Below are positions 1,022 to 23,983 of a stretch of 64,000 bases of DNA, piece after piece. This DNA is from Lachnospiraceae bacterium. Its GTDB lineage: Bacteria > Bacillota > Clostridia > Lachnospirales > Lachnospiraceae. Made by a program: the position numbers and the translations under genes. A model generated the notes under the pieces. The model made no database searches and had not been told where the DNA came from. It saw only the letters and a list, made by a program, of their open reading frames with translations. Every line of letters starts with the position of its first letter. Within the stretch, counting starts at the first letter, position 1. The stretch spans positions 1 through 64,000 of the forward strand of contig CAJTDX010000009.1 of assembly GCA_910575155.1 (NCBI GenBank), written 5' to 3'.

Positions 1022-1071
1022 GGGAGGAGAGATCAAAGAGCGATTGCTTTTTTATTTGAATTTATTATATA

Positions 1072-1881: not shown

Positions 1882-1930
1882 CATGATTCCTGCGGTTGCA
1901 TAAATTGTATCAGAGCTAAAAACGTCAGAA

Positions 1931-1971
1931 AAAGATTCTCTTGTCCGGTTTCGACAGGGGGATCTTTTTTT
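1931..1971 (+). terminator. Rho-independent terminator after the LytTR regulator
   Basis: A 15-bp stem (AAAGATTCTCTTGTC pairing with GACAGGGGGATCTTT through three G-U pairs) with a 7-nt loop, running directly into a T tract. It separates the first kinase and regulator from the second kinase. Confidence 0.85.
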
Positions 1972-2072
1972 GTCCCTCTAAATTTATGGTTTATCCCATT
2001 TTGTAGAATTTCCATACGTAAAAAGCTATCATAGAACATGAAAAGTGTTCTGCAAAAAGGAGGATGAGAAGT

Positions 2073-3365: not shown

Positions 3366-3483
3366 CAGAGCCGTACAGATCGGGGAAAAGAATACTGCCG
3401 CTGTTGTGAAAATGGAAAGAACAGGTTTGAGACAGAACGATATGAGACAATGCCATGGATGTCAGAATGCGTGGAGGATTAAA

Positions 3484-4605
3484 ATGATGCGTACAGTTTT
3501 TTCAAAGGAAGAAGTAAATACAGGAAGGCAAAGGGAGTTCGATTATCTGAAAGGGATTTTCATGCTGTTTATATACCTGATCCATGCGTTTCAGGCAACT
3601 TTGTCTCCACAGGATTCCATGAGCCAATGGATTTATTCGTTTGCAACGATGTCCGGGGCGGCTATTTTTATCTTTGTTATGGGAATTGGAACGGTTTACA
3701 GCAAGGATGCGGCGCCGGCAAATTTTGCAAAGAGCGGCGTTCGCATGGTGATTTACCAGTATCTGAATAATATTGCTTATATAGCGGCGCTGACGATACC
3801 CTATCCGTTCGTTTCCGGAAGATTGACGGAGAGTGTGACGGAAAATGTAAGGTTCCTGGTAAAGATTTACATGCAGTATACGAATATCTTTTTTATTACC
3901 GGAATCATCTATCTGATACTGGCGCTGCTTAAGAAATTGGATCTGAAAACGGTATGGTATGTGATGATTGGCGCAACAGTCAGCATAGCGGCGCCATTTA
4001 TTTGCGGCATACCTGTGAATGTGCCGGTAATCGGGTATATTGTGAAGCTTTTGATTGGAGAGGCAGATTTTGTTTCTTTTACACCGCTATATTTTCTGTC
4101 TTATGCGCTGCTTGGCGTTGCTTTTGGCAAAATGATCAGACATGTTAAAGATAAAACGGGATTTTACAGAATGTTTTGTATTCCCGCTGTTGCAATTGTC
4201 GTTGTATGGTGGCTGCTGATATTTAAAAATTACGGTTCGGATCTGTCCGAACTGCACGCCTTTCTGAGTAATGCGTATACGCATCCGGATTTTTGGCATG
4301 TGGCGGCAAGCCTGGCGCATATATTCTTTTTTGCCGCAATCTTTTTCTTTATCGAAGAGATTCGCAGGAAAAATAATAAATTATGTACACCAGAGAATTT
4401 TGCTGCGAGACAGCTTCTATATTACAGCAGGCATATATCGAAATATTATGCCCTGCATACGCTGGTATATTTTGCCGCTCTTGGAATAAACGGCTATGAG
4501 AGCTTTCAGAGCTATCAATGCTGGCTGCTCGCATTATTGTCAATTGTGGTTACGGAGCTAATGGTAAGAGGATTTAACTATTTATCTGAAAAATATTTTA
4601 ATTAA
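3484..4605 (+). CDS. Acyltransferase-3 / DUF1624-like polytopic membrane protein
   Basis: Integral membrane protein with about ten hydrophobic segments. It opens with a REFDYLKGIFMLFIYLIHAF stretch, the Arg-x-x-x-Asp ... His pattern seen at the first helix of acyltransferase-3 and heparan-glucosaminide acetyltransferase-like (DUF1624) families, which move acyl groups onto sugars or small molecules at the membrane. The start at 3484 is chosen because GGAGG at 3473-3477 lies 6 nt upstream; earlier in-frame ATGs lack ribosome sites. It ends 25 bp before the NRPS gene and is probably co-transcribed with it, so it may acylate the product or a carrier. That role is inference, and the family call is by pattern only. 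Confidence 0.65.
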   Translation: MMRTVFSKEEVNTGRQREFDYLKGIFMLFIYLIHAFQATLSPQDSMSQWIYSFATMSGAAIFIFVMGIGTVYSKDAAPANFAKSGVRMVIYQYLNNIAYIAALTIPYPFVSGRLTESVTENVRFLVKIYMQYTNIFFITGIIYLILALLKKLDLKTVWYVMIGATVSIAAPFICGIPVNVPVIGYIVKLLIGEADFVSFTPLYFLSYALLGVAFGKMIRHVKDKTGFYRMFCIPAVAIVVVWWLLIFKNYGSDLSELHAFLSNAYTHPDFWHVAASLAHIFFFAAIFFFIEEIRRKNNKLCTPENFAARQLLYYSRHISKYYALHTLVYFAALGINGYESFQSYQCWLLALLSIVVTELMVRGFNYLSEKYFN

Positions 4606-7600: not shown

Positions 7601-10600
7601 GTGATTGATTTATTCCGCGCACAGGCGAAAAAGACGCCAGATCACACAGCCGTTGTCTATACGGACAGAAGCTATACCTATGCCCAGGTGGATGAAATGT
7701 CAGATCGTCTTGCAGCCTGCGTTGCGGGGCTTGGCATTGGCAGGGAAGAGGTGGTGTCCGTGCTGATTCCCAGATGTGAATACATGGCGATTGCTTCGAT
7801 TGGCGTGTCTAAGTCCGGTGCGGCATATCAGCCCTTAGATCCTACCTATCCAAAAGAACGGTTAGCATTTATGATGGAGGATTCCGCGGCAAAGCTGCTG
7901 ATTGCCGATGAGGAACTTTTGCCGCTGGTGCCGCAGTGGCAGGGCAGAGTTTTGCTGACAAAGGATATCCCCAATCTGCCCAGGGCAGACAAACTTCCGG
8001 AGCCGCCGAAACCGGAGGATTTGTTTATTCTGCTCTATACCTCAGGTTCCACAGGCGTGCCCAAGGGCTGTATGCTTGAACATAAAAATATTGCGGCGTT
8101 CTGCGACAGCTATCGCAGGAATTATGAATTGACAGAAGACAGTTGTGCGGCAGCCTATGCGAGTTACGGATTTGACGCCAATATGATGGATATGTATCCC
8201 ACGCTGACGTCCGGCGCGGCGCTTCATATCATAGATGAATCCATACGTTTAGACTTGAATGCGTTGCATGAGTATTTTGAGGAACATAGAATTACCAACG
8301 TGTTTATGACGACTCAGATCGGACGGGCGTTTGCCACCAGTATGCTTTCTGGAGCAGCGGGTTCGGGCAGTGCGGCGGATGCAGAGAATACGCATTTGAA
8401 ATATCTGCTGATGGGCGGAGAAGCGTTGGCGCCGTTTGCGCCTGAAGGCAGCACGCATTACCTGAATGTATATGGTCCTACGGAATGTACGATATTGACG
8501 ACTGCCTACCCGTTTGAGGAATATGAGGAGGATTTACCGATCGGCAAGCCTCTGCCAAATATTAAATTATATATTATAGACAAGCAGGGCAGAAGAGTTC
8601 CGGTCGGCGTGCCGGGAGAACTGTGTATTTCCGGCGTCCATGTATCCCGGGGGTACCTGAACCGCCCGGAAAAAACGGCGGAGGTCTATGGTGACAATCC
8701 ATATAGCAATTTGCCGGAATATAGCAGGATTTACCATACCGGTGATATCGTGCGTTATCTGCCGGACGGCAATATTCAGTTTATCGGCAGACGGGACGGG
8801 CAGGTGAAGATCCGCGGCTTCCGCATCGAGCTGACCGAGGTGGAAGAAATTATCCGTCGTTTCCCAGGGATTAAAGACGCTACGGTGGCAGCGTTTGACG
8901 AGACATCGGGTGGGAAATACATCGCCGCTTATGTGGTTTCGGACGAAGAAGTTGATGTGGATGCGATGAATGCTTTTATCGAGGAGAGCAAACCGCCATA
9001 TATGGTTCCGGCAGTGACAATGCAGATTGATAAGATTCCGCTGAATCAGAACCAGAAAGTGAATAAGCGTGCGCTGCCTATGCCGGAGCGCAGGCAGCAA
9101 GATTTAGTGACGCCTGAGGGAGAAGTGCAGCAGAAGATTTTTGACTGCATAGCAGAAGTCATTGGACATCGGGAATTTGGCGTAAATTCAGATATCTATA
9201 AGGCGGGGCTGACCTCGATTGGCGCAGTCAGGCTGAACGTGCTGCTGTCAGATGCCTTTGAGGGCGCAGTCATCCGCAACAAGGATTTAAAAGAGCATGA
9301 CACGGTAGAGAAATTAGAAAAATTCCTGGCGGGCAGCAGCCGCAAAGAGACGTTTGAGAAACGGGAAACATATCCGCTGACACAGACGCAGAATGGTATT
9401 TTTGTAGAGTGCGCAGCCAACCCGGGAAGCACGATTTATAATATTCCTTTCCTGTTTTGCCTGGGAGAGAATGTAGATTTACAGCGTTTGAAGAAGGCGG
9501 TCGAGGAGACAGTAGAGGCGCATTCTTATATTAAGACGACGCTAATGCTGGATGATAACGGCGATATCTGGCAGAAACGCAATGATGATTTGCCGTTTGA
9601 AGTTGAGATATGCGAAGAGCTGCATAAGGAAGAACTGGTGAAACCATATCAGATCCTTGGCGACAGGCTGTTTCGTATACAATTATTTGATACGCCGGAA
9701 GGGAAATATCTCTTCCTGGAATTCCATCATATTATCAGCGATGGCGAGTCCTGCGGTATTTTCCTCCGCGATATGAATGAGGCGTATGACGGGAAATCGC
9801 CGGAGAAGGAGAAGTTCAGCGGTTATGAGGCTGCGCTCGTAGAACAGAAAGCGCTGCAAGGACAGGAGTATACCCTTGCCAGACAATATTACGACGGTAT
9901 TTTTAAGGGCTGCGACACCGATTTCCTTCCAGCTAAAGACCACAGGGAGGAGACGCCTGGGCTTGGCTTGTATCAGAGAGCGGATCAGGCTGATCTGGAA
10001 GCGCTGAGGCAGTTCTGCACCGGGCAGAAGGTTACTTTAAATACGTTGTTTACAGCGGCGTTTGGATTTGTGACGGGACGTTATGTATATAAATATGAGG
10101 CAGTTTTTACGACCATATATAATGGCAGAAATGATTCCCGGCTGTCATCCACCATCAACATGCTGGTGAAGACGCTGCCGGTTTACTGTAATCTGGAGGG
10201 GGAAAAAGAGATTAGCTCTTACCTGAAAGAGACCGGGGAACAGTTGATGAACAGCATGAATGCCGATATTTATTCGTTTGCGGAAATCAGCAGGGCTTAC
10301 GGTATCAAAGCGGATATCATGTTTGCGTTCCAGGGCGACAGCTTCCTGTTTGATACGATTGCCGGGGAGAAAGCCGTCAGAGAGGAGCTTTCCTTAGACA
10401 CGGCGAAGGCGCCGTTGTCCATAGACGTAATGGTAAATGAAAATGAGATCTGCTATCAGGTGGAATACCGCAGTGATCTGTATGAGGAACGCACGATTGC
10501 CGGGCTGGTTGACAGTCTTGCAGTGGCAGTGCAGGAATTCCAGGATAAGAAGCAGTTAAAGGAAGTCTGTATGGTAAGCCAAAGCGCGCGCCGTGAACTG

Positions 10601-13597
10601 GATCACTACAATAAGACAGAGTATGCGGTGGAGCAGACCACGGCAAACGTATTGTTTGAGCGGCAGGCTGCACTTTATCCGGATAAGACGGCGGTGATTG
10701 CCTGCGGCAGGAGCCTGACGTTTTGTGAACTGAATGAGAATGCCAATAAGATTGCAAACCATTTAATTGAAATGGGCTTATCCATCGAGCAGATGGTAGG
10801 CGTGATGCTGCCGAGGACCGTGGATGTCTATGCGGCAAGACAGGGAATCATGAAAGCGGGCGGCGCATTCCTGCCCATAGACCCCGAATATCCGGATGAG
10901 CGTATCAGCTATATCCTGGAAGATTCCAGGGCGGAATTTGTGCTGATGCCCGCAGAGATTGCAAAAGAGCGGAAAAAGCTGCTTGAACACCTGTCTGCCA
11001 AAGTGCTGATTCTCGAGGAACTTTTGGAAAAGGATGGCAATACCGGCAATCCTGAGGTGGATATACGCCCGGAGAACCTGTGTTACTGCATTTATACTTC
11101 CGGCTCTACCGGAAAGCCGAAGGGCGTCATGATTGAGCACCGGAATCTGGTGAACTATGTGGATGATAACCCCTACAATGTAGAGGCGCAGTCTTATGTA
11201 TACAACGCCACGGTATCGCTGGCATTTGCGGCGATTACCTTTGACGTTTCCATTTTGGAGGAATGTATCCCGCTGTACCACGGCATTACTGTCTGCATGG
11301 CAAACGAAGAGGAAATCCACAATCCGCTTGCGCTTTCCAGACTGATCCTGGAAAATGGCGTGGATATGATGACCTGTACACCCTCATTTTTAATCAATAT
11401 TATCGACATGCCGGAGATGAAGAAAGCATTGTCGCAGATTAAAGTCTTTAACGTGGGTGCGGAGGCATTTCCGGAGGCGCTTTATGACAAAATTATGGCT
11501 CTGGGAACCAACGCCATTACCTTTAATGGCTATGGGCCGACTGAGACGACGATTGGCTGTGCCTTCGACCAGGTGAGCGGGGATAAGATTACGATTGGCA
11601 AGCCGATGGCAAACATTAAGATGGTAATGATTGATAAGTACCGCAATCTGCTTCCCGCCGGCGTACCGGGCGAGCTTTTGATTATTGGAGACGGCGTCGG
11701 CAGGGGCTATGTGGGCAAGCCAGAGATGACAGCGGATAAATTCATTCAGTTTGAGGGCATGAATGCTTACCGCAGCGGCGATCTGGCGAAATGGAACCAC
11801 CATGGCAAAATTGAATTTATGGGACGCATGGATAACCAGGTGAAACTGCGCGGGCTGCGTGTGGAGCTGGATGAGATTGAAAATGTTATGAACCAGTATC
11901 CCACGGTCAAATCCAGCGTAGTGCTTGTAAAAGAAAAAGATTCCAATCAGTTCCTGTGCGGTTACTTTGTGGCCGAGAGCCAGGTGGAGAAACAGAATCT
12001 GACCTGCTTTATGCAGAAATATTTAACGCCTTATATGGTGCCGAGCGTGCTCATGCAGCTTCCTGAGCTGCCGCTTACCAATAACGGCAAGGTCAATAAG
12101 CGCGCCCTGCCGGAGCCGGAGTACACAGTGGACAATAAGAATTATGTGAAGCCGCACACAGAACTGCAGCGTAAATTATGTGAAATCTTTGAGATGGCTC
12201 TCGGCGTGGATCAGATCGGCATCGAGGATGATTTCTTTGAACATGGCGGCACGTCCCTGTCAGCGTCCAAAGTGGCGATGAAGTGCATGAGCGCAGGCAT
12301 TCAGGTAGCGTATGCTGACTTGTTCGAGTACAAGACGCCTTTGGAACTGGAACGCCATATCCAGAAGCAGCAGGGCGGGAGCGCTGCCGCAGGAGGAGAG
12401 CAAAAGAGCGGTGAAGGACAGAGCGCCTTAGAGCAGGTATTAAGCCGCAATGTGACAGCGCATGTGGACGAGATTGCTCCATCTGCACTCGGCAATGTCC
12501 TGCTTACAGGTGCAAATGGCTTCCTGGGAGCGCACATCTTAAAGAACATGATAGACAATGAGGATAATGTGATATACTGCCTGATGCGCAGGGGAAAAGC
12601 TTCCACCCTGGAGAAACGGTTAAAGAGCATGCTGGTGTATTATTTCAGCAATCCCTATGAGGAATTATTCGGCAGCCGGATCCAATTAATTGAAGGCGAT
12701 ATCACGGACGCTGCCAAGGTAGAAAGCCTTCAGCAGTACGACTTTGTCCGGGTTATTAATTGTGCGGCGTGTGTGAAGCATTTTTCAGCAGATGATACTT
12801 TGGAGCGGGTGAATTATCAGGGCGTTTTGAATCTGATTGATTTGTGTAAAAAGACGGAGCGCGAGTTGATTCAGATTTCCACGGTGAGCGTTGCCGGGGA
12901 AAATGTGGGCGGCAAATTCCCACAGGAGAAGAAGATGTACGAGAGTGAACTTTACTTTGGACAGAGCCTTTCCAACAAGTATATTGATACGAAGTTCCGT
13001 GCAGAAAAGGCTGTCTTAGAGGCAGCATCACAGGGCATGAAGGGCAAGGTCATCCGTGTGGGGAACCTGATGAGCCGCATCAGTGACGGTGAATTCCAGA
13101 TCAACTCTGTGACGAACGGATTTATGCGCACCCTGCGCGGTTATGTGGCGCTTGGCAGGTTCCCGGTGTCCATGCTGGATATGCCGACAGAATTTTCACC
13201 GATTGATTCTACGGCGGAGGCGATTGTCAAATTGTCTGCGGTTGAAGGTGAATTTACGGTATTCCATGCTTATAGCAGCTATTTAGTCCAGATGGCGGAT
13301 GTAATAGAACAGATGAATGAGTCGGGTATTCTTGTGGAGACGGTCAGTGATGAGGATTTTGAGCAGGCGCTTTTGGCAGCTTTGGAGGATGAAAAGAACA
13401 ATGAGCTGATCTCCGGTCTGATTGCCTATGCATCCAGCGACGCGGATCATAGCGCCGTCTACATAGATGCGGACAATCGTTTCACTACCAAAGCCTTGTA
13501 CCGCCTCGGGTTTAAGTGGCCGATGCCGGACAGCGTTTATCTTAAAAATGCGCTGACGGCTCTTGAAACATTGGGATTTTTTGATGGAAGGTTATAA
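4631..13597 (+). CDS. Trimodular nonribosomal peptide synthetase with terminal thioester reductase
   Basis: Assembly line of 2988 residues with the order A1-T1-C1-A2-T2-C2-A3-T3-R. Carrier serines are at about residues 507 (LGGDS), 1529 (AGLTS, atypical) and 2542 (HGGTS). Both condensation domains keep the HHxxxDG motif (His680/Asp685 and His1699/Asp1704). The reductase has the NAD(P)-binding motif TGANGFLG from residue 2626 and the Tyr2784-xxx-Lys2788 pair, so the chain should leave as an aldehyde or alcohol. A1 reads SFVVLVLEYF at core A4, with Val where amino-acid A domains have Asp235; a non-amino carboxylic acid starter is predicted. Specificity lines read by eye: A1 VVLFAGCAT, A2 DAMFLGVIL (aliphatic type), A3 DVLTFVGIG, each followed by the A10 Lys. 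No PPTase gene is in the window. The likely product is an N-acyl dipeptide aldehyde, a class known from gut Clostridia as protease inhibitors. Confidence 0.95.
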   Translation: MNFLDEFQYVVRTYPQKAALADCNGERMTTYKELETLSRRIAAKLLESGEMSGKAVMVCMGRKMEYIAAELGIMMAGGAFVPVLPEYPGERLNYIKEDCKAAAVIDDGWLSEIETYEPIQPAAREDDSLAMMIYTSGSTGRPKGIVHTMASLTQGVWRNRSVLYVDENDVQAAGAPMSFVVLVLEYFTVLSRGGCSHILPEETRKDVRLLEDYFAARDITCAFISPQILRLFKNKSRTLKKVATGSERVSMMAGDGYELYNCYGSSETAATVLSYKIEEPMENTPIGKPLEGLEFFLLDEDGKEVADGKEGEICIKGVLAGSYLNLEEQSAKTFIRQDDGSVLLHTGDIGRRMQDGNFVYVNRKDWMVKINGQRVETGEIELRITSVPEVESAVVKAFEDENGQNYLCAYYVSAEEVKVEKIRACLKETLPDYMIPRFFKRLDSLPKNVNGKLDRTVLLPPGLDEYKTTYKEPQSHCEKRICQGFEEVLHCGRVGVDDDFFKLGGDSINVLKLAEFLSDIELQPEHVLNGRAPAKIAALLEEKKEDQLKRHSQERKEYVLTDSQMGVYLECVNDPQATMYNIPVCCELPDAVDMERFKDAVKKAVSMHPSFGVNVALNRGTPVMSLHPEYLRADVGEWETEDIEAVKRTFVRPFRLEGEPLYRMALYRCVDKCYFLFDVHHIIFDGTSVKVFLDEISQLYHGQEPESEEISQMDFSVYEESIKDTARYQKAREFFAGKLAGEDFGEALIKDYKKKTVTPAGREVRISLSGELSSMAVEQFVRQRGISENTLFLGAFSYTLGKFSGENKSLFCTVNNGRHTVNMANSTGMFVRTLPICHSWEESVSVEQYLQSFQEEFYAVMSHDCISFAELAKDYGIASDILFVYQGEMFQGLSLEGGQYEAAPLATGDVQADVSVMVMKQGGGYEISLEYRTDLYCEKTARGLLHMLQQVLRGMLASETLSQIALVSELDIQILDGFNETEVSYDRSKTVIDLFRAQAKKTPDHTAVVYTDRSYTYAQVDEMSDRLAACVAGLGIGREEVVSVLIPRCEYMAIASIGVSKSGAAYQPLDPTYPKERLAFMMEDSAAKLLIADEELLPLVPQWQGRVLLTKDIPNLPRADKLPEPPKPEDLFILLYTSGSTGVPKGCMLEHKNIAAFCDSYRRNYELTEDSCAAAYASYGFDANMMDMYPTLTSGAALHIIDESIRLDLNALHEYFEEHRITNVFMTTQIGRAFATSMLSGAAGSGSAADAENTHLKYLLMGGEALAPFAPEGSTHYLNVYGPTECTILTTAYPFEEYEEDLPIGKPLPNIKLYIIDKQGRRVPVGVPGELCISGVHVSRGYLNRPEKTAEVYGDNPYSNLPEYSRIYHTGDIVRYLPDGNIQFIGRRDGQVKIRGFRIELTEVEEIIRRFPGIKDATVAAFDETSGGKYIAAYVVSDEEVDVDAMNAFIEESKPPYMVPAVTMQIDKIPLNQNQKVNKRALPMPERRQQDLVTPEGEVQQKIFDCIAEVIGHREFGVNSDIYKAGLTSIGAVRLNVLLSDAFEGAVIRNKDLKEHDTVEKLEKFLAGSSRKETFEKRETYPLTQTQNGIFVECAANPGSTIYNIPFLFCLGENVDLQRLKKAVEETVEAHSYIKTTLMLDDNGDIWQKRNDDLPFEVEICEELHKEELVKPYQILGDRLFRIQLFDTPEGKYLFLEFHHIISDGESCGIFLRDMNEAYDGKSPEKEKFSGYEAALVEQKALQGQEYTLARQYYDGIFKGCDTDFLPAKDHREETPGLGLYQRADQADLEALRQFCTGQKVTLNTLFTAAFGFVTGRYVYKYEAVFTTIYNGRNDSRLSSTINMLVKTLPVYCNLEGEKEISSYLKETGEQLMNSMNADIYSFAEISRAYGIKADIMFAFQGDSFLFDTIAGEKAVREELSLDTAKAPLSIDVMVNENEICYQVEYRSDLYEERTIAGLVDSLAVAVQEFQDKKQLKEVCMVSQSARRELDHYNKTEYAVEQTTANVLFERQAALYPDKTAVIACGRSLTFCELNENANKIANHLIEMGLSIEQMVGVMLPRTVDVYAARQGIMKAGGAFLPIDPEYPDERISYILEDSRAEFVLMPAEIAKERKKLLEHLSAKVLILEELLEKDGNTGNPEVDIRPENLCYCIYTSGSTGKPKGVMIEHRNLVNYVDDNPYNVEAQSYVYNATVSLAFAAITFDVSILEECIPLYHGITVCMANEEEIHNPLALSRLILENGVDMMTCTPSFLINIIDMPEMKKALSQIKVFNVGAEAFPEALYDKIMALGTNAITFNGYGPTETTIGCAFDQVSGDKITIGKPMANIKMVMIDKYRNLLPAGVPGELLIIGDGVGRGYVGKPEMTADKFIQFEGMNAYRSGDLAKWNHHGKIEFMGRMDNQVKLRGLRVELDEIENVMNQYPTVKSSVVLVKEKDSNQFLCGYFVAESQVEKQNLTCFMQKYLTPYMVPSVLMQLPELPLTNNGKVNKRALPEPEYTVDNKNYVKPHTELQRKLCEIFEMALGVDQIGIEDDFFEHGGTSLSASKVAMKCMSAGIQVAYADLFEYKTPLELERHIQKQQGGSAAAGGEQKSGEGQSALEQVLSRNVTAHVDEIAPSALGNVLLTGANGFLGAHILKNMIDNEDNVIYCLMRRGKASTLEKRLKSMLVYYFSNPYEELFGSRIQLIEGDITDAAKVESLQQYDFVRVINCAACVKHFSADDTLERVNYQGVLNLIDLCKKTERELIQISTVSVAGENVGGKFPQEKKMYESELYFGQSLSNKYIDTKFRAEKAVLEAASQGMKGKVIRVGNLMSRISDGEFQINSVTNGFMRTLRGYVALGRFPVSMLDMPTEFSPIDSTAEAIVKLSAVEGEFTVFHAYSSYLVQMADVIEQMNESGILVETVSDEDFEQALLAALEDEKNNELISGLIAYASSDADHSAVYIDADNRFTTKALYRLGFKWPMPDSVYLKNALTALETLGFFDGRL

Positions 13598-13636
13598 TCA
13601 ACAGCGCAGCCAGCCGAACAGTTACAGGAGGGTTCT

Positions 13637-15397
13637 ATGGAAAGAAATGCGTTTTTAATAAATAAAAAAATTCATCAGTATATTCTGCCAGGGGTGCTGA
13701 TGACAGTTGCAATGCAGCTTGGCAATGTGGTGGACGGCATGATTGTCGGGAACCTCCTGGGAGCGGAGGCGATGGCGGCGATTGAAATTTCCATGCCGGT
13801 GCTGTTACTGCTGCAGATGGCGGCTTTGATGCTTGCTATGGGCGGCGCGGCTGAGACGGCGGTATTTCTTGGTAAACGGGACATGGAAAAAGCCAGCGGG
13901 GTGTTCACTGCCTCGCTGGCAGCCGGGCTGGCAATATCTGTGTTTTTTGCGCTGTTTGCGCCAATCCTGCCGGAACCTGCAGCCAGGCTGCTTGCCGGAA
14001 ACAGTGATCTGGCTGCGCTTGCCGAGCCGTATATTATGGTGAATGTTGCGGGAATCCCGATTCTGACAGTCGCTATTATTTTATGTTATTTTATGAATGC
14101 AGATAACCATCCGCAGCTGGGGAGCGCGCTTTTTATCATTGCCAATGCAGTAAACCTGGTTCTGGATTTTGTGTTTATCCGGAGCTTTCATATGGGCATG
14201 GCAGGCAGCGCGCTGGCTACGGTGATTGGTTATCTGGCTGGCATGGCGCCGGTGGTAATTTATTTTCGTTCCAAACAGCGGATGCTGCGCCTGCGGAAAC
14301 TGGATAAAAAAGCGTTCCATTATGTGAGCATTTCCATGAAAGCAGGTATTCCCAGCGCAGCGTTTACGCTGATGTCTGCGCTGAAGTCTGTGATTATCAA
14401 TTCTGTGATTGTGCGTATTTTGGGAAATGGCCCTATGGCAGTCTATTCTGTCTGCGCCAATGCTGTGCTGATTGCGGAATTGTGTGTAGGAGGAATTATT
14501 GGACTGGTCCAGAACATTGCGGGAATTCTCTATGGGGAACGTGATTATTATGGCATACGTACCCTCTGTAAGAGAGTGCTCACCTACAGCTATATAGCGA
14601 TCGTTATCTTGATGATGATATTTTTTGCCGTTCCCGGGTCGATTGCCGGGTTGTTTGGAATCACAGAGGGCGGTCTGCTTACGCTCTGTGAGACGGCGCT
14701 GCGTATATTTGCCTGCAGCTTTCCCTTCTATGTGTATAATAAGTTCCTGATGTCCTACTACCAGACAATTTTACAGCCGGGGCTGTCCACGATGGTGACG
14801 GTGCTGCAGGGATTTGTGGTGATCGTGCCGCTTACTCTGACAGGGATTTTCTTCTGGGGGTTTCCCGGGGTATGCCTGATGGCAGTGGTAAGCGAAGCCG
14901 TTACAATTTTTCTGGCTATAGTTTGGCGGATTGTGGGTCAGCGCAGGGGGAGGTTTGAACCGGGAGGCGTTTATATGCTGCCGCAGATTACGGATGAGAA
15001 GTCTTTAGATTGTTCCGTTGAGAATAATCTGGAGGAGGTGATTGCTTTTCGGGAAAAGCTGTTTGTATTTTGTGCAGACAATCACATAAGTGAACGGGAT
15101 GCCTCGATTCTTGGGGTTGCCGTGGAGGAGATTGCTGCCAATATTGTGCAGTATGGCTATCGCGGCGGTCAGAGGAATTATATGGACATCAGTTTTACCA
15201 TACAGGATGAGAAATATATTCTGCGAATCCGCGATGACGGTATTCCGTTTAATCCGTTGGACTATGTTCCGCAGGAAGAAGCGGAAGTGACGGTGGGAGG
15301 AATTGGCCTGCTGAAAAAAATCACCTCGGATTTCCAATATATGCGGGCGCTGAACCTGAATAACACAGTGATCGAGCTGAATATCCGGAAGAATTAA
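13637..15397 (+). CDS. MATE efflux transporter fused to an RsbW-like ATPase domain
   Basis: The first 445 residues form a twelve-helix MATE (DinF/NorM-type) cation-coupled drug exporter. The last 130 residues form a cytoplasmic HATPase of the RsbW/SpoIIAB anti-sigma kinase type. N-box residues Glu497, Glu498 and Asn502 (VEEIAANIVQYGY), the G1 box RDDGIPFNP and the G2 box GGIGLLKK are all present, so ATP binding should be intact. It starts 39 bp after the NRPS with a GGAGGG ribosome site, which points to export of the NRPS product. An anti-sigma-type kinase joined to a transporter suggests that partner switching, rather than a sigma factor, gates export. That link is inference; the fusion itself is read directly and is in one uninterrupted frame. 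Confidence 0.92.
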   Translation: MERNAFLINKKIHQYILPGVLMTVAMQLGNVVDGMIVGNLLGAEAMAAIEISMPVLLLLQMAALMLAMGGAAETAVFLGKRDMEKASGVFTASLAAGLAISVFFALFAPILPEPAARLLAGNSDLAALAEPYIMVNVAGIPILTVAIILCYFMNADNHPQLGSALFIIANAVNLVLDFVFIRSFHMGMAGSALATVIGYLAGMAPVVIYFRSKQRMLRLRKLDKKAFHYVSISMKAGIPSAAFTLMSALKSVIINSVIVRILGNGPMAVYSVCANAVLIAELCVGGIIGLVQNIAGILYGERDYYGIRTLCKRVLTYSYIAIVILMMIFFAVPGSIAGLFGITEGGLLTLCETALRIFACSFPFYVYNKFLMSYYQTILQPGLSTMVTVLQGFVVIVPLTLTGIFFWGFPGVCLMAVVSEAVTIFLAIVWRIVGQRRGRFEPGGVYMLPQITDEKSLDCSVENNLEEVIAFREKLFVFCADNHISERDASILGVAVEEIAANIVQYGYRGGQRNYMDISFTIQDEKYILRIRDDGIPFNPLDYVPQEEAEVTVGGIGLLKKITSDFQYMRALNLNNTVIELNIRKN

Positions 15398-15537
15398 GAT
15401 TTATCCCTAAATAGATATCAATTGTCCCGAACTGCACAGTTTGCAAAAATATTTTGTTAATATGGTATGGGGGGGATGGCGCCAGAGGCGCTTTTGACAC
15501 CCTGATTTTATGAAAAATAAGAAAGGAGAAATACAAT
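15398..15537. other. Intergenic region with a weak hairpin
   Basis: This 140-bp gap holds a short GCGCC-AGA-GGCGC hairpin followed by TTTT (15479-15494), a possible weak terminator or attenuator, and an AT-rich stretch. No convincing promoter was found. AAGGAGA lies just before the VOC gene. Confidence 0.4.
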
Positions 15538-16119
15538 ATGAAAAAACCAGTTTTTACAGGATTGTCACATGTATGCATTTTCGTGGATGACGTGATGGAG
15601 GCGTTTCAATACTATGAGAGGATTTTGGGCGCTGTTCCCAACCAGCATATTCCCCATTGGAAGAACAAAGGTTTTTTTCAGGCGGGAGGTTTTATAGAAG
15701 AGGCAGAAGAAGGGGATGTTTCTATTGGCTTTATGGATGTGCCGGGAACGAAGTTTACCATTGAACTGATGTGCTACCACAATCCGAAGGGGCGGCAGGA
15801 ACCCGTGATTTTTAAAGCCAATGATATCAGCGGAGCCAGGCATGTGGCGTTAAAAGTCATCAATATCGAGGAGGCTTTTGAATACATAAAGGCGCAGCCG
15901 GACGTAACTTTGATTAATACCACAGAAGGTTACCAGGTTTACCAGATCAGCAAGACATTGCCGTCAGATTTTTACTATTTTGATGAAGCGAAAGAGAAGG
16001 ACGCTGAGGGTAAACAGAAAGCGGCGGATATTTTGGGCAATACCAAATATTTTTACTTTATTGATAAGTATGGACTGCAATGGGAATTTGAGCAGGGGCA
16101 TACAGATATTGGAGATTAA
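15538..16119 (+). CDS. VOC (glyoxalase/bleomycin-resistance fold) family protein
   Basis: Protein of 193 residues with two vicinal-oxygen-chelate modules. The first opens with GLSHVCIFVDDVMEAFQYYERILG, a typical beta-alpha-beta-beta start with a metal-ligand His. The second centres on ARHVALKVINIEEAFEYI and ends near a Glu in LQWEFEQ. VOC proteins are isomerases, lyases, dioxygenases or drug-sequestering resistance proteins. Its position between two MATE exporters next to an NRPS suggests modification of the product or self-protection. Substrate cannot be told from sequence. It ends a few bases before the STAS gene, whose ribosome site overlaps the end of this frame. Confidence 0.8.
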   Translation: MKKPVFTGLSHVCIFVDDVMEAFQYYERILGAVPNQHIPHWKNKGFFQAGGFIEEAEEGDVSIGFMDVPGTKFTIELMCYHNPKGRQEPVIFKANDISGARHVALKVINIEEAFEYIKAQPDVTLINTTEGYQVYQISKTLPSDFYYFDEAKEKDAEGKQKAADILGNTKYFYFIDKYGLQWEFEQGHTDIGD

Positions 16120-16131
16120 GGAGTGAAGGAT

Positions 16132-16431
16132 ATGGATATTATGGAGAACTTAAATGGAAACCAGTTATGCATTTCTCTGGAGGGAAGGCTGGACACAACG
16201 ACTGCGCCGCAGCTTGAAAAGGTTCTTGCGGACAGATTGGAGGGATTGACGGAACTGGTATTTGACATGAGCGCGCTTGACTATCTGTCATCGGCGGGGC
16301 TGCGTGTCCTTCTGGGAGCACAGAAGCGGATGAACAAGCAGGGAAGCATGAAGGTCGTGAATGTGAATGAAACGATCATGGAGATTTTTGAAGTGACCGG
16401 ATTTGCCGATATCCTTACAATCGAGTCGTAG
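16132..16431 (+). CDS. STAS-domain anti-anti-sigma-factor-like protein
   Basis: A single STAS domain of 99 residues resembling SpoIIAA and RsbV: an N-terminal strand pair (LCISLEGRLDTTTAPQLE), then the switch loop DMSALDYLSSAGLRVL, where the serine before AG is the usual phosphorylation site. The ATG at 16132 is chosen because AAGGAG lies 8 nt upstream; an in-frame GTG at 16123 overlaps that site. In partner switching the dephosphorylated STAS protein binds an RsbW-type kinase, which inactivates it by phosphorylation. Here the kinase-like partners are the HATPase domains fused to MATE transporters and the free kinase at 21694, with the PP2C at 20082 as the reactivating phosphatase. Confidence 0.9.
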   Translation: MDIMENLNGNQLCISLEGRLDTTTAPQLEKVLADRLEGLTELVFDMSALDYLSSAGLRVLLGAQKRMNKQGSMKVVNVNETIMEIFEVTGFADILTIES

Positions 16432-16474
16432 CCTGGCATATGTTTGGAGATGCCATTATGAGAAATGAGAGCGT

Positions 16475-18259
16475 ATGAGTGAGCAGACATCTTCTATTTC
16501 ACTGGAACAGAATGAGCAATTTCTGAAAAAGGCATATGGGAAGGCATTGATTCCCTGTATGCTGTCCATTTTAAGCGGCAATATTAATATTCTTGCAGAC
16601 GGCATCCTTGTCGGGCAGCGGCTCGGGGCGGATGCCTTAGCTGCAATTAATTTCAGTTTACCGGTCTACCTTGTCCTGTGTATTGCCGGTTCTTTTATAG
16701 TTTCGGGGACTGCCATCTGCGCGGCAGGGGCTATTGGCAATCATCAGGGCAAAAAGGCGCAGGAACTTTATAAGATGTCGGTTTTCTGGTGCGTGTTTAT
16801 TTCGGCAGTGGTTACGGCGGCGGGACTCTTATGCATCAAACCTCTGGCAGGCCTGCTGTGTTCCCAGGAGGCGGTATCGCCTCTGGTGATGGAGTATACC
16901 GGCGTGACCCTTGCCGGAGCATTGCCCAGAATCCTGATTTACATTCCCTTCTGGTATCTGAGGCTGGATGGGAGGAATCGGCAGGTCACATGGATGATGC
17001 TTGTGATGGGCGCGGGAAATGTGATGCTGGACGTGTTATTTTTGTATGTCTTTGACATGGGCGTGTCCGGGGCTGCGTTTGCCAGTGTTATGGCGACGGC
17101 GGTCTCCTGTCTGCTGGGCTTTGTCTGGCTGTGCGACAAAAAGAGCAGTTTTTCTTTGGGTATGCGTGTTAATTGCAGGGACGTTTCCTTTGTATGCATT
17201 GCCAGGGCGGGCAGCCCGTCCGCCTTGAATAATCTGTTTCAGACGCTGCGTGTTATGGTCGTAAATACATTACTTTTGCAAAATGGCGGCAGCGGACTGG
17301 TAGCGGCGTTTACGGCGGTGAACTGTATCGGCGCATTTGAAGAGAGCGTAACTGGCGGCGTGCCGCAGGCAGCGTCTGCAATGCTGGGCGTTTACAGCGG
17401 AGAACATGACAATAAGAGCGCATGTCTGCTGCTGACAAGGCAAGTCAGAAGCGGCGTCCCCTATTGCCTGCTGTTTTCCATTGTGATTCTTGCTGGGGCA
17501 GATTTCATTGCGGGTGCATATGGGCTGACAGATTCACTGAGATTTGCCTTTTTGTGCATGTCGTTTGGCATGATTCCTGCGCTGTGTAATTGTATTCTGT
17601 CGGGATACTATAATGTGTCGGGATACGCCATGTGGGCAAATGCAATTATTTTACTGCGCGTGTTTGTTATGCCGTGTGCAAGCCTGTTTGTGCTTTGCCG
17701 GCAGAGCTGCAGTCCCTGGTGGTTTTTATTTACAGGTGAAGTCCTCACGCTGCTTGTCTGGTTTGCGGCGACAGGCGTGTATCGTCATTTCCACAGGCGC
17801 TGCTCGCGTTTCCTGTTGATGGATCAGACGTTGGAAGAGACCGGTCGGGTTATTAATTTTTCGGTGCGGGGCAAGGAAGAGGATATCTGTGATGCCAGCA
17901 GTAAGATTACGGTGTTCTGTGAGGAAAACGGTATGCTTCCCGGACAGGTTATGCGCGTGAGCCTGGCGATGGAAGAAATGATGACGCTGATTCTGTCTGA
18001 AAATGGGGAAGAAGGTGTGGAATTTGATCTCCGGGTGTATTCTCTGGAGGGTGTGATCGGTATCCGCATCCGTTACAGCGGCAGGGAGTTCAATCCATTA
18101 TGCCGCACAGAAGACAAAGGACAGACGGGCGCTGATGCGCTGGGGAAGGAAGCGGGGAATTGTGATATGTACATGGGAATCCGCATGATTGAGGATATGG
18201 TGGAGACGGCAATGTACCAGCGGACGTTTGGCATGAATACGATTCAGATTTACATATGA
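16475..18259 (+). CDS. MATE efflux transporter fused to a degenerate RsbW-like domain
   Basis: Second MATE exporter in the locus, with the same layout as the protein at 13637: a twelve-helix transporter to about residue 450, then a C-terminal HATPase-like domain. The nucleotide pocket is decayed. The N-box Asn is replaced (EEMMTLIL, Leu505 where the first copy has Asn502), and the G1 Asp is replaced by Ser535 (RYSGREFNP). The G2 region (MGIRMIED) keeps one glycine. Such a domain could still bind a STAS protein without phosphorylating it, making it a pseudokinase sensor. It may pair with the first MATE or handle another substrate. Paralogy between the two MATEs suggests duplication followed by loss of kinase activity in this copy. 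Confidence 0.9.
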   Translation: MSEQTSSISLEQNEQFLKKAYGKALIPCMLSILSGNINILADGILVGQRLGADALAAINFSLPVYLVLCIAGSFIVSGTAICAAGAIGNHQGKKAQELYKMSVFWCVFISAVVTAAGLLCIKPLAGLLCSQEAVSPLVMEYTGVTLAGALPRILIYIPFWYLRLDGRNRQVTWMMLVMGAGNVMLDVLFLYVFDMGVSGAAFASVMATAVSCLLGFVWLCDKKSSFSLGMRVNCRDVSFVCIARAGSPSALNNLFQTLRVMVVNTLLLQNGGSGLVAAFTAVNCIGAFEESVTGGVPQAASAMLGVYSGEHDNKSACLLLTRQVRSGVPYCLLFSIVILAGADFIAGAYGLTDSLRFAFLCMSFGMIPALCNCILSGYYNVSGYAMWANAIILLRVFVMPCASLFVLCRQSCSPWWFLFTGEVLTLLVWFAATGVYRHFHRRCSRFLLMDQTLEETGRVINFSVRGKEEDICDASSKITVFCEENGMLPGQVMRVSLAMEEMMTLILSENGEEGVEFDLRVYSLEGVIGIRIRYSGREFNPLCRTEDKGQTGADALGKEAGNCDMYMGIRMIEDMVETAMYQRTFGMNTIQIYI

Positions 18260-18277
18260 CAGGAGACAGAGGAAAGT

Positions 18278-19954
18278 ATGAAAACCAATTATGGAAAACT
18301 GGGGCGGGAATCTATGGATTCACTTAAGAGCACCTCAAAAAGGTCTGCGGAAGTGCAGATGCAGATACTCGCTGAACTCATGTACCGTAACCGTGAAACG
18401 GTATATGGCAGGAAATATGGTTTTGGGGCTATCGAGACGGCCGGGGAGTTCCAGAAAAAAGTGCCGCTTTGCACATATGGGGATTACGAGGATTACATCC
18501 TGCGGATGATTGCAGGCGAGGAAAAGGTTCTGACAGAAGAACCAGCCGTTTATTATTGTATCAGTTCCGGTACTACCGGGGATGCGAAGTATCTTCCGCT
18601 TACGGAGACAGATTTAAAGATTCAGTATACGTATGCATACGGCGTTCTTTTCGGCATGGTAAGAGAGTATTACCGGGATTTGCCGGAAAATGAAGTTTTT
18701 GGCAGGATTTTCCAGATCGGGGAGTTTGCAAAGACTTATATGGAAAATGGTACAATGAACGGCATCCGTTCCGGATGTATTTACCAGTGGCTGGACAGGG
18801 ATGGGCAGTTTGACGCAGAGGATTACTGTGTGCCCAAGGAAGTATTGTTTCCGGATACGCTGGAAGATTTGTGCTATGTTAAGGTGCGGTTTGCATTGGC
18901 AGAGCCGGATCTTCGCGCCATACATGGCGTTTTTGTCAACCGGGTAGCAGGGGTTTTGGACTATATCTGGCGAAACTGGGAAATGCTGCTGAAGGATATG
19001 GAGTATGGAAGGGTGGATGAATGTGTGAGCCTGAGCCGCAGATGGAGGGAGTATGTAGAGAGAAAACTGCCGCCCAACCCTTTGCGGGCGGAACAGCTGC
19101 GCCTTCTTTCCCATGAGACGCTGCGTAAAGATCTCATTAAGAAAATTTGGCCCGGGGTCCGGTATGTGCTGGCAATTGGCGGGGAATCGTTTGCTTATTA
19201 TACAGAAAAGATGCAGGAGTATGCGGGGGACATTCCCATACATCCTTATGCCTATGCGGCTTCGGAAGGAATTTTTGGCGTTGCAGAGAAGATGAATCAG
19301 ACAAATCGTTATATTCTCTTTCCAGAGGCGGGATTTTTTGAGTTTATGCCGTTAAATAAGGAGCAGATGGAAGAACAACGGCCTTTATGTATGTGGGAGA
19401 TTAGCATCGGTGAGCGGTATGAACTTGTGTTTACAAACCATTCTGGGCTGTACCGTTACTGTATGCAGGATGTGATAGAGGTTGTTGACTGGTATGAGCA
19501 GGCTCCCATCGTGCAGTTTTGTTACCGTAAAAATCAAGTGGTCAATATTGCCGGGGAAAAGAGCAACCAGGAGCAGCTTGCAGAGGCTGTCAGGCAGTTT
19601 GCGTTCCGTATGCGCTGTGAGATTACAGGATATTGTATACAGGAGGATCTGTCAGACGTATTGCCGCATTATCAGTTGTATCTGGAATGCACGGATATCA
19701 ATGGCTCAGGCGCAGAAGACATTTTAGATGACTGCCTGTGCCGTGTAAATTATGAATATCAGGGCTGCCGGAAGATGAATGAAATTGGCAAAGTTCGCAT
19801 TTCCTATCTGCGTGCAGGCAGTTTTAGATGCTATGAGGAACAATTGGCGAAGAGTGGCAGGATGATGGGGCAGAACAAGCAGGTGTGCATTCTGGACACA
19901 GAGGAGAAGAAGCAGTTTTTTGCTGCCAGGGAGAATGATTCCAGGCAATATTGA
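18278..19954 (+). CDS. GH3-family acyl-adenylating / amide-forming enzyme
   Basis: Protein of 558 residues matching the GH3 (auxin-responsive promoter) family of the adenylate-forming superfamily. Motif I reads SSGTTGDAKYLPL near residue 93 and motif II reads YAASEGIFG near residue 326, with a C-terminal lid after about residue 400. Plant GH3 enzymes adenylate a carboxylic acid hormone and couple it to an amino acid; the bacterial relatives are largely uncharacterised. Inside an NRPS locus it could activate the starter acid, attach an amino acid to the product, or make an acyl-amino-acid signal. It starts 18 bp after the second MATE and has a ribosome site (AGGAAAG), so it belongs to the same operon. 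Confidence 0.87.
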   Translation: MKTNYGKLGRESMDSLKSTSKRSAEVQMQILAELMYRNRETVYGRKYGFGAIETAGEFQKKVPLCTYGDYEDYILRMIAGEEKVLTEEPAVYYCISSGTTGDAKYLPLTETDLKIQYTYAYGVLFGMVREYYRDLPENEVFGRIFQIGEFAKTYMENGTMNGIRSGCIYQWLDRDGQFDAEDYCVPKEVLFPDTLEDLCYVKVRFALAEPDLRAIHGVFVNRVAGVLDYIWRNWEMLLKDMEYGRVDECVSLSRRWREYVERKLPPNPLRAEQLRLLSHETLRKDLIKKIWPGVRYVLAIGGESFAYYTEKMQEYAGDIPIHPYAYAASEGIFGVAEKMNQTNRYILFPEAGFFEFMPLNKEQMEEQRPLCMWEISIGERYELVFTNHSGLYRYCMQDVIEVVDWYEQAPIVQFCYRKNQVVNIAGEKSNQEQLAEAVRQFAFRMRCEITGYCIQEDLSDVLPHYQLYLECTDINGSGAEDILDDCLCRVNYEYQGCRKMNEIGKVRISYLRAGSFRCYEEQLAKSGRMMGQNKQVCILDTEEKKQFFAARENDSRQY

Positions 19955-20081
19955 GAAGTTCCTGATACTCCATCTGTCCGGTCATCAGCGCCGGCAGTCT
20001 GATGGCTGGCCGGACGGAGCGTTAACCGCCGGAATAATATCATAACAGGGCCAAACGCTGTTTGGGAAAGGAAGAAGTGGA
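19955..20081 (+). other. Intercistronic hairpin between GH3 and PP2C genes
   Basis: This 127-bp gap holds an interrupted inverted repeat (GTCCGG...CATCAG at 19976-19988 pairing with CTGATG...CCGGAC at 19999-20015). It lacks a T tract, so it is not a standard terminator and may stabilise or process the transcript. A GGAAAGGAAG ribosome site precedes the PP2C gene. Confidence 0.4.
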
Positions 20082-21713
20082 ATGAAAAAGAGGATTACCG
20101 GACTTACGGGAAAACTGACGCTCGGCATCATAATCTTCGGCATTTTGCTGGGGGTGATGATCAGCATAATTGGCTACCGGGAATTTACGTCTGTGTTAGA
20201 GCGGCAGTATAATGATTCGGCGTATGAGATCGCGGAGACTGCGGCAAATTACTTAAATCCAGATAAATTTGAAGAATATTTGTCCACAGGGGAGATGGAT
20301 GATGAGTACCATGAGATTGAAAAACGGCTGGATGATTTGGTGGACGCCACGGACACGACATTGATTTATGTGGCGAAGGTTGACACTTCAGATTACCGGA
20401 CGCTTACTTATATTTATGACGCGGTGAATTCCGCCAGCGGCTTTGACCGTTATCCTCTGGGCTATACGGCGGTTGGCGTGGATGAGAAGTATGTGAATAA
20501 TGTGCGGGGGATCATTACCAGAGGCGAGCGTGCTACGGAATATCTTTATTCTTATTCGGAGGAATCCGGGGCGCATACGACGGCAGGCATTGCCATATAT
20601 GATTCAAAAGGAGAAATTGTGGCAATCCTCGGCGTGGAGAAAGCGATGAGAAGACTGGAAAATGCCCGCAATACGTATGTGAAAGACGTGCTGCTTGGCG
20701 TTCTGGCCGCCGTCTGCCTGTTTCTGCTTGTGTATAGCATGTTTTTGTACCGGGAGGTCTTGCTGCCGATTCTTGCCGTCACGGACGAAGCCAAGCGTTT
20801 TGCAGATTCTAATACGCCCTCGGATAAGCTGTCCGCCATTAACAAGAATGATGAAATCGGCGTGTTGGCAAAGGCTGTGGGCAAGATGGAGACGGATCTT
20901 GTGGAATATATAGAAAACCTGACGATGGTCACGGCAGAGAAGGAGCGGATTGGAGCGGAGCTTTCCATTGCCACGCAGATACAGGCAGATATGCTGCCCG
21001 GAATTTTCCCGGCGTTTCCGGACAAACCGGAATTTGATATCTATGCCACAATGAATCCGGCAAAGGAAGTCGGCGGTGATTTCTATGATTTCTTCATGGT
21101 GGACGAGAGCCATCTGGCGGTTGTCATGGCGGATGTCTCAGGAAAAGGCGTGCCGGCGGCGCTGTTTATGGTGATTGGCAAGACCCTGATTAAGGAACAT
21201 ACCCAGCCTGGCAGGGATTTGGGCGAGGTGTTCACAAAGGTCAATGACCTCTTATGCGAGTCTAATAGCGAAGGATTGTTTATCACCGCCTTTGAAGGTG
21301 TGCTTGATCTTGTGAGCGGCGAGTTTACATTTGTCAATGCAGGTCATGAAATACCCTTTATCTGCAAAAAGGACGGCAGCTATGAGCCTTATAAAATTCG
21401 TGCAGGTTTTGTGCTTGCCGGTATGGAGGGGATACGTTATAAGTGCGGTACGATGCAGTTATCTCCCGGCGACCGGCTGTTTCAGTATACGGACGGCGTG
21501 ACAGAGGCAATGGATCAGGACGGCAGGCTCTACGGCATGGAACGGCTGGGAGAAATTCTTGCACAGAATACAGCGTTAGCGCCGATGGAACTGCTGGGGA
21601 AAGTCAAAGAAGATATTGATGCTTTTGTGGGCGATGCGCCGCAGTTTGACGATATTACCATGTTATGTCTGGAATACAGGGAAAGGATGCATAATGAAGG
21701 AATTGACGATTGA
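20082..21713 (+). CDS. Membrane sensor PP2C-type (SpoIIE/RsbU) serine phosphatase
   Basis: Signal-controlled phosphatase of 543 residues. An N-terminal membrane helix (about 13-32) is followed by an outside sensory domain to about 198, a second membrane helix (about 203-222), a HAMP linker, a coiled coil (VTAEKERIGAELSIATQIQADMLP) and the PP2C/SpoIIE domain. Metal-binding aspartates are visible in GGDFYDFF (Asp333), ADVSGKG (Asp351) and QFDDITML. It should remove phosphate from the STAS protein at 16132 when the outer domain senses its ligand. The kinase gene at 21694 overlaps its last 20 bases, so the two are translationally coupled. It completes a partner-switching triad within the NRPS locus. 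Confidence 0.93.
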   Translation: MKKRITGLTGKLTLGIIIFGILLGVMISIIGYREFTSVLERQYNDSAYEIAETAANYLNPDKFEEYLSTGEMDDEYHEIEKRLDDLVDATDTTLIYVAKVDTSDYRTLTYIYDAVNSASGFDRYPLGYTAVGVDEKYVNNVRGIITRGERATEYLYSYSEESGAHTTAGIAIYDSKGEIVAILGVEKAMRRLENARNTYVKDVLLGVLAAVCLFLLVYSMFLYREVLLPILAVTDEAKRFADSNTPSDKLSAINKNDEIGVLAKAVGKMETDLVEYIENLTMVTAEKERIGAELSIATQIQADMLPGIFPAFPDKPEFDIYATMNPAKEVGGDFYDFFMVDESHLAVVMADVSGKGVPAALFMVIGKTLIKEHTQPGRDLGEVFTKVNDLLCESNSEGLFITAFEGVLDLVSGEFTFVNAGHEIPFICKKDGSYEPYKIRAGFVLAGMEGIRYKCGTMQLSPGDRLFQYTDGVTEAMDQDGRLYGMERLGEILAQNTALAPMELLGKVKEDIDAFVGDAPQFDDITMLCLEYRERMHNEGIDD

Positions 21714-22101
21714 CGCGACAGTAGAAAATATAGAAACAGTGACGATGTTTGTTGATGAACAGTTAGCACAGATGAATTGTCCGCTGAAAGCACAGATGCA
21801 GATTGACATTGCTATTGACGAACTCTTTGGCAATATCGCGCACTATGCCTATAATCCTGAGACAGGTCCGGCGACTGTCCGTATTGACGTCTTACAGGAT
21901 CCTCTTTCGGTGGTGGTAACGTTTATCGACAATGGCAAGGCTTACGACCCGCTTGCCAGAGAAGACCCCAATGTGGCGCTTACAGCGGAAGAGCGGGAGA
22001 TTGGCGGGCTTGGCATCTATATGGTGAAGAAGTGCATGGATGAGATTTCTTATGAATATAAGGATGGGAAGAATATCCTGCGCATTAAGAAAAAGATATG
22101 A
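21694..22101 (+). CDS. RsbW/SpoIIAB-like serine kinase (anti-sigma-factor-type HATPase)
   Basis: Free HATPase of 135 residues. The N-box (IDELFGNIAHYAY), G1 box (IDNGKAYDP) and G2 box (GGLGIYMVKK) are all intact, so ATP binding and phosphorylation of a STAS partner are expected. The start at 21694 is chosen because it gives the normal N-terminus and has AAAGGA 8 nt upstream; an earlier in-frame ATG lies inside the PP2C gene. It overlaps the phosphatase gene by 20 bp. RsbW-type proteins normally hold a sigma factor, but no sigma gene is in this locus. The target may be the STAS protein alone or an unlinked sigma factor. Confidence 0.9.
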   Translation: MKELTIDATVENIETVTMFVDEQLAQMNCPLKAQMQIDIAIDELFGNIAHYAYNPETGPATVRIDVLQDPLSVVVTFIDNGKAYDPLAREDPNVALTAEEREIGGLGIYMVKKCMDEISYEYKDGKNILRIKKKI

Positions 22102-22193
22102 CGTTTCTTATTATTACAGGCTTTTCGCCAGAATTGCCCATAAAAAAGTTGATGTAAAGTAAGGTGATTTTTATCATTAGTCACTGTTTAGGA

Positions 22194-22226: not shown

Positions 22227-22257
22227 GGATATATGAAGCGTATTCCCGCGTGATAAC

Positions 22258-23980: not shown

Positions 23981-23983
23981 GAT

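Follow-up and report, generated by a model that had tools for sequence, protein, structure and literature searches.

What does a partner switch control when no sigma factor lies beside it? This question is raised by a gene cluster of a Lachnospiraceae bacterium (assembly GCA_910575155.1), whose genome of 4.19 Mb is distributed over 148 contigs. The window, meaning the whole stretch of 64,000 nucleotides that was analysed, is C9:1-64000 (contig CAJTDX010000009.1). The module in question occupies 13637..22101, directly after a gene for a nonribosomal peptide synthetase (NRPS), and combines two MATE transporters with RsbW-like HATPase tails (MATE1 and MATE2), a STAS protein, a membrane PP2C phosphatase and a free RsbW-like kinase. 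Partner switches are known above all as regulators of sigma factors: in Bacillus, RsbV/RsbW/RsbU and SpoIIAA/AB/E switch a sigma factor by phosphorylating a STAS protein. From comparative sequence analysis, we propose, with a probability of roughly 0.55, that the module is a sigma-free partner switch with a transporter as its output. The kinase and the PP2C would set the phosphorylation of the STAS protein, and the MATE tail would be its receptor.

Switch proteins and transporter tails in the window

The STAS protein, the phosphatase and the free kinase, which the earlier note had placed between and after the MATEs, were all recognised by Pfam (Table 1). The STAS protein also scored above the cut-off of NCBIfam TIGR00377. 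SSAG and the R of its serine site were invariant across 17 aligned STAS proteins, and the serines of the window protein are intact. The phosphatase has intact catalytic motifs and two hydrophobic segments spaced by about 160 residues, together with a weak HAMP match of 17.7 bits, under the HAMP cut-off. The kinase gene probably starts at ATG 21694, overlapping the end of the PP2C gene. Its ATP motifs (N, D-x-G and GGLG) are all present, and its product is a predicted kinase.

Judged by their motifs, a STAS protein with a phosphorylatable serine site, an RsbW-type HATPase with intact ATP motifs and a PP2C/SpoIIE phosphatase are thus all present. A cognate sigma factor was found neither in 13637-22101, in agreement with the earlier note, nor within six genes of 61 related fusions. 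The negative at the locus is limited by the 21 sigma region 2 matches in the whole genome, of which only one, in an open reading frame (ORF) at 48365-50275, falls within the window. The module would work like partner switching and a sigma output was sought and not found, so we regard it as a variant of the known switch.

The ORF at 48365-50275 lies 26 kb from the module and encodes 636 residues. ECF sigma regions 2 and 4 make up its residues 1-184, after which a long C-terminal extension has no Pfam match at 0.001; the next ORF, of 145 residues, is likewise without a match.

Across the genome, the HATPase_c_2 matches above the Pfam cut-off of 27.4 bits were a spoIIAB-like gene (C9:70864), the free kinase, MATE1 and two weak matches in longer frames. 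The STAS matches were the module protein, a spoIIAA-like gene (C9:70492) and, on contig C19, a short match within a frame of 62 residues. A sigma gene at C9:71328 follows the spoIIAA-like and spoIIAB-like genes, indicating a spoIIA-type operon about 48 kb from the module. The C19 frame (L096 5293-5481, G000:C19) is a remnant of the module's STAS type, with both ends shortened relative to full STAS proteins.

Both MATEs had been read as ending in RsbW-like HATPase domains. The MATE1 tail scored above the HATPase_c_2 cut-off and retains the N-box Asn, D-x-G and one GGxG; the structure model of MATE1 has a mean pLDDT of 90.1. The MATE2 tail is degenerate (N-box Asn to Leu, G1 Asp to Tyr, no GGxG). 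Despite its Pfam score under the cut-off, it aligns with other HATPase domains, and at the C-terminus the AlphaFold model shows the helices and strands expected of a HATPase, with low confidence at residues 545-564. MatE domains and the MATE fold were also found. A structure search with the MATE2 model returned MATE, Wzx and MurJ-type structures only, by which the HATPase part is barely tested. A profile of 28 MATE-linked HATPase domains gave five matches at E<=0.01 among PDB sequences, namely one RsbW and four SpoIIAB. The assignment of both tails therefore held, since HATPase profiles matched the C-termini, that of MATE2 below the Pfam cut-off.

Recurrence of the fusions and their partner genes

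Is the arrangement an accident of one locus? Hereafter, L numbers denote locus stretches and G numbers genomes, G000 being the genome of the window. With the MATE1 domain as query, 26 of 150 same-family genomes matched, 15 of them with frames of about 600 residues. A profile search at 1e-10 matched 53 of 391 class genomes, of which 24 were strong, with frames of 570-673 residues in 12 families. FastTree, run on the MATE part alone, placed all 75 fused or long MATEs in one clade with a support of 0.999 (0.57 in a smaller first tree). Two unfused MATEs also fall in this clade, L143 and L229, the latter of which looks like a fusion split across two frames. One clade for all fused MATEs indicates that the fusion is old and was mostly retained. 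MATEs of 558-575 residues adjoining NRPS genes (L176-L179, L181, L184) belong to the same clade, and their C-terminus no longer scores as HATPase.

The neighbourhoods of 61 distinct fusions were compared with those of 41 plain MATEs from the same genome set, and partners were counted within six genes. Among the 75 stretches read in the search for fusions, 58 contain one. The 61 leave out other HATPase proteins (L093, L094, L129-L133, L135-L137), L109 with 348 residues, under the length limit, and the long MATEs by NRPS genes named above, which have no recognisable HATPase. The plain MATEs came from 38 stretches and were hand-picked among the matches listed. PP2C genes lay near 22 fusions and 0 plain MATEs, STAS genes near 21 and 3, RsbW-like genes near 17 and 2, and any of the three near 29 and 3, with neighbourhoods incomplete on one side for 33 fusions and 10 controls. 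The kinases counted were free or fused to PP2C or STAS, and 13 fusions had all three partners. The same comparison gave 9 vs 0 for GH3, 14 vs 0 for an NRPS reductase domain, 12 vs 0 for APH, 10 vs 7 for LytTR and 0 vs 1 for sigma factors. The two plain MATEs with an RsbW-like gene nearby are both in L158, beside STAS and RsbW-like genes and one of them near a sigma gene; the gene content of L158 resembles that of a spoIIA operon. L164 holds the third plain MATE near a STAS gene.

The association was also seen at genome level. STAS of the module type (E<=1e-20) occurred in 21/24 fusion genomes against 37/367 others in the class set (P 1.6e-16) and in 17/18 against 25/132 in the family set (P 3.5e-10); both sets include the window's own genome, and the P-values are optimistic because the genomes are related. 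The STAS protein of G511 (1.4e-18) misses the limit and was scored absent in the 21/24. Fusions found later by profile (G012, G046, G146) had STAS and PP2C nearby in 3/3 cases and a free kinase in 2/3. Two NRPS-linked loci that seemed bare at first have partners just outside the first stretch: STAS, PP2C and kinase genes 3′ of the NRPS in G056, and PP2C-HATPase and STAS genes 5′ of it on the opposite strand in G511. A STAS/PP2C-HATPase pair is located elsewhere in the genome of G346.

The closest whole relative of the module is one contig of G057 (L180/L074). It carries STAS, MATE-HATPase, GH3, PP2C and kinase genes, followed by a second MATE-HATPase, an NRPS with a reductase domain, a second STAS, APH and a third MATE-HATPase. 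MATE2 of the window is 64% identical to the first MATE of L180. A cultured relative, Blautia schinkii DSM 10518, carries the partner genes as well: its locus L252 contains STAS, two HATPase genes, STAS-APH, MATE-HATPase and PP2C. The 61-vs-41 neighbour contrast, the genome-level co-occurrence, the later-found loci and the single clade together rule out a single-locus accident. The earlier note had tied the module to exporters of the NRPS product; the sigma-less set with MATE fusions stood, and in the relatives the partner genes accompany not only the MATE1 of the NRPS side but also MATE2 and GH3.

A search centred on the STAS protein yielded 594 relatives, of which the best 80 were kept and 79 were readable. 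Within six genes of these 79 loci, RsbW-like genes were counted at 41, PP2C at 36, APH at 11, MATE-HATPase at 11 and sigma factors at 4; in L216, the sigma, STAS and kinase genes are consecutive. With sigma genes near 4/79, the STAS type may in other places have a sigma factor as its output. Alternatively, the target of the module's switch could be a distant sigma factor or an enzyme (GH3, APH or NRPS), the tail of the MATE being an unrelated folding or dimerisation domain. The APH and sigma counts among the best of the 594 are in line with such targets, as is the occurrence of STAS-APH and STAS-APH-HATPase fusions. This explanation is nevertheless unlikely, as it has to face the retention of the fusion through a clade of 75 genes and the co-occurrence with the module's STAS type. 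A sigma factor as the output of the MATE-linked module was rejected on the 0/61 count within six genes.

The triple fusions of STAS, APH and HATPase (about 520-535 residues) and the STAS-APH fusions (about 400 residues) lie near MATE-HATPase genes (Table 1). From its domain composition, the STAS-APH fusion is a STAS domain carried by a phosphotransferase-family protein. In L093 (3939-6038), a protein of 699 residues joins an AMP-binding (adenylation) domain to a C-terminal HATPase, and its gene has STAS and PP2C-HATPase genes as neighbours; it is possibly a ligase controlled by the same kind of switch.

Receptor or kinase: motifs of the MATE-borne domains

Kinase-type domains (free, PP2C-fused or STAS-fused, n = 68) were compared with MATE-borne domains (n = 68). 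The N-box Asn, G1 Asp and G1 Gly were present in 68, 67 and 66 of the former, and in 49, 58 and 26 of the latter, where Cys replaced the Gly in 32. The GGxG lid, counted alignment-free in the second half of each domain, was found in 64/68 kinase-type and 2/68 MATE-borne domains (MATE1 of the window and L252). The N-box Glu pair was retained in 67/68 and 68/68 MATE-borne domains. We take the N-box Glu of SpoIIAB to face the STAS serine. Its retention while the ATP glycines are lost is consistent with a domain that has kept its contact with STAS and no longer phosphorylates it. Most MATE-borne domains have degenerate motifs and resemble receptors for STAS more than additional kinases. Degeneration was uneven: both N-box Asn and G1 Asp were lost in 6/9 GH3-adjacent fusions, including MATE2 of the window, and Asn and D-x-G were retained in 12/14 fusions near an NRPS reductase.

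The retained motifs of the NRPS-linked domains, and the N-box Asn, D-x-G and GGxG of MATE1, are what would be seen if information ran in reverse. The MATE would then be a sensor whose transport state sets the activity of its own HATPase kinase, and STAS phosphorylation would report export to another target. The loss of GGxG from nearly all MATE-borne domains, the degenerate GH3-adjacent tails and the separate intact kinases near 17/61 fusions speak against this flow, which we judge improbable.

The same kinases bear on a scaffolding role. RsbW-type HATPase folds form dimers, and a MATE-borne domain, sharing its fold with the free kinase, could pair with it and anchor the switch at the membrane, with transport unaffected through STAS. 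Kinases free or fused to PP2C or STAS do lie near the fusions, but STAS and PP2C genes are found there somewhat more often (21 and 22 against 17, n = 61), and the retained N-box Glu pair would be expected on the STAS side. Of the alternatives considered, we find this one the hardest to credit.

In the transporter-output reading that we prefer, the free kinase would phosphorylate the STAS protein within its SSAGLR site. The PP2C, whose stretch of about 160 residues between the hydrophobic segments would be extracellular, would dephosphorylate it when triggered by an outside or membrane signal. Unphosphorylated STAS would then dock on the RsbW-like C-terminal domain of the MATE and alter transport, opening or closing the exporter. 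The MATE2 domain would be a pure receptor, and the MATE1 domain may act as receptor, as kinase or in both roles. MATE1 would export the NRPS peptide after its reductive release, and MATE2 perhaps an N-acyl amino acid made by the GH3 ligase.

Several observations weigh against this reading. The receptor role is weaker for MATE1 and L252, which retain GGxG. STAS, PP2C and RsbW-like genes were all absent within six genes of 32/61 fusions. Of the co-occurrence across Clostridia that the earlier note proposed to survey, the enrichment of STAS and PP2C near fusions stood, and this count speaks against a strict version. The co-occurrence P-values look better than they should because the counted genomes are related. 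G478 and G487 gave no STAS match at 1e-13, the stretch retrieved from the G487 contig shows none either, and G014 gave none at 1e-20. By the STAS-centred counts, the STAS/PP2C/kinase set extends beyond its use with MATEs.

The comparison suggests that, in gut and rumen Clostridia, a partner switch controls exporters directly rather than gene expression. A wider claim is that Clostridia have a widespread sigma-free signalling class in which a pseudo-RsbW domain fused to MATEs lets kinase, PP2C and STAS regulate these transporters post-translationally. We hold it tentatively, at slightly less than an even chance, our estimate having been lowered by the GGxG of MATE1. The same STAS type, fused to or beside APH kinases, GH3 and AMP ligases, may be a general signalling currency.

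Neighbouring genes, known systems and significance

All listed genes from 86 to 22101 are on the + strand, in the order of Table 1, with intergenic gaps of at most 182 bases. The earlier note had named the switch and transporter genes of the module correctly and overlooked the glyoxalase-like gene and the GH3 ligase.

Table 1. Coordinates of the module, its upstream genes and the STAS-APH fusions of related loci
Feature	Position	Strand	Evidence
Upstream genes	86..4605	+	GHKL kinase, LytTR regulator, second GHKL kinase, acyltransferase-like gene (Pfam)
NRPS	4631..13597	+	3 adenylation, 3 carrier, 2 condensation domains, terminal NAD-binding (reductase) domain (Pfam)
MATE1	13637..15397	+	MatE 79.1 bits; HATPase_c_2 at residues 462-570, 51.9 bits (Pfam)
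Glyoxalase-superfamily protein	15538..16119	+	Pfam
STAS (anti-anti-sigma type) protein	16123..16431	+	STAS 63.6 bits (Pfam); SSAGLR serine site
MATE2	16475..18259	+	MatE 57.2 bits; HATPase_c_2 at residues 474-592, 20.6 bits, below cut-off (Pfam)
GH3-family acyl-amino acid ligase	18278..19954	+	three of three GH3 domains (Pfam)
Membrane PP2C (SpoIIE-type) phosphatase	20082..21713	+	PP2C/SpoIIE 153.6 bits (Pfam)
Free RsbW-like kinase	21694..22101	+	HATPase_c_2 76.2 bits (Pfam)
STAS-APH(-HATPase) fusions	L100 7139-8701, L104 13302-14909, L108 10452-12041; also L087, L090, L110, L182

The upstream genes have possible roles in regulation and tailoring; the acyltransferase-like gene scored slightly below its Pfam cut-off. 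The glyoxalase-superfamily gene, a putative accessory to the module, was the sole match of its kind across the related loci in a search with our own profile. Promoter-like sites in 13400-22700 numbered 26 (13.6 in shuffles) and terminator-like sites 14 (8.1 in shuffles). All 14 of the latter are intragenic; the sites define no transcripts.

The likely chemistry of the neighbours resembles that of AusA, the aureusimine NRPS, and OlsH, that is, reductive peptide release and N-acyl amino acid formation. Terminal reductase domains of NRPSs release aldehydes, as stated in the accessible part of PMC7586950, and the NRPS product is on this analogy probably released as an aldehyde. OlsH is a GH3 ligase forming an N-acyl amino acid (PMC12493201, accessible part), and the GH3 ligase of the window may do the same. 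Both differ from these models in that their matches stay below the family cut-offs: AusA was the top NCBIfam model of the NRPS with 1493.7 bits (cut-off 2500), and the GH3 ligase reached 102.2 bits against OlsH (cut-off 620).

Immediately 3′ of the module, 22310-29207 holds two ORFs without a Pfam match, of 556 and 1498 residues, and a gene for a DUF6063 protein. Both ends of the 1498-residue ORF resemble an SMC-type ATPase, and this operon is possibly of defence type. Further on, 43992-48019 (- strand) holds a BspA-type leucine-rich repeat protein (LRR_5, 268 bits) adjoining a repetitive surface-like protein.

The module resembles RsbU/RsbV/RsbW and SpoIIE/SpoIIAA/SpoIIAB in its PP2C phosphatase, its STAS protein with a serine site and its RsbW-type HATPase kinase. 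It differs from these Bacillus switches in the lack of a sigma factor at the locus or near the 61 fusions and in two extra RsbW-type domains carried by transporters. SiaABC of Pseudomonas aeruginosa is described as a partner switch (PMC7647112), and SiaC directly activates a diguanylate cyclase (PMC8457831), both according to the accessible parts of these reports. SiaABCD is like the proposed module in that a phosphatase and a kinase set the phosphorylation of a small protein acting on an enzyme, with no sigma factor; its output, however, is a diguanylate cyclase instead of a transporter. The module PP2C reached 65.7 bits against the SiaA model (cut-off 700), and no GGDEF match was found among the genes scanned around the locus, with one GGDEF gene in the related L089.

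In E. coli MlaFEDB, the STAS protein MlaB is bound to the ABC transporter ATPase MlaF, and a phosphomimetic change at a conserved site weakens binding (PMC7367683, accessible part). The likeness is a STAS protein on a transporter subunit. MlaFEDB differs in that this subunit is an ABC ATPase, where the module has a MATE with a HATPase tail, and MlaB phosphorylation is not demonstrated in the accessible part of that report. The module STAS protein scored 19.9 bits against the MlaB model (cut-off 90), and there is no ABC gene in 86-22101. A review of STAS-only proteins treats gene regulation in its accessible part (PMC8256260). Our literature search, with most subscription journals outside it, returned no report of MATE-HATPase fusions or of partner switching on a transporter. 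What is new is a complete switch combined with a transporter that bears an RsbW-type tail; SiaABCD and MlaFB are each a precedent for one half.

The proposed module predicts that the STAS protein binds the pseudo-RsbW tail. If true, it would account for a domain conserved across a whole MATE clade and would mean that an anti-sigma-factor fold was turned into a regulatory tail on exporters. If the output is the transporter, common gut and rumen bacteria would have a fast, transcription-free coupling of an outside signal to the export of secondary metabolites or lipids.

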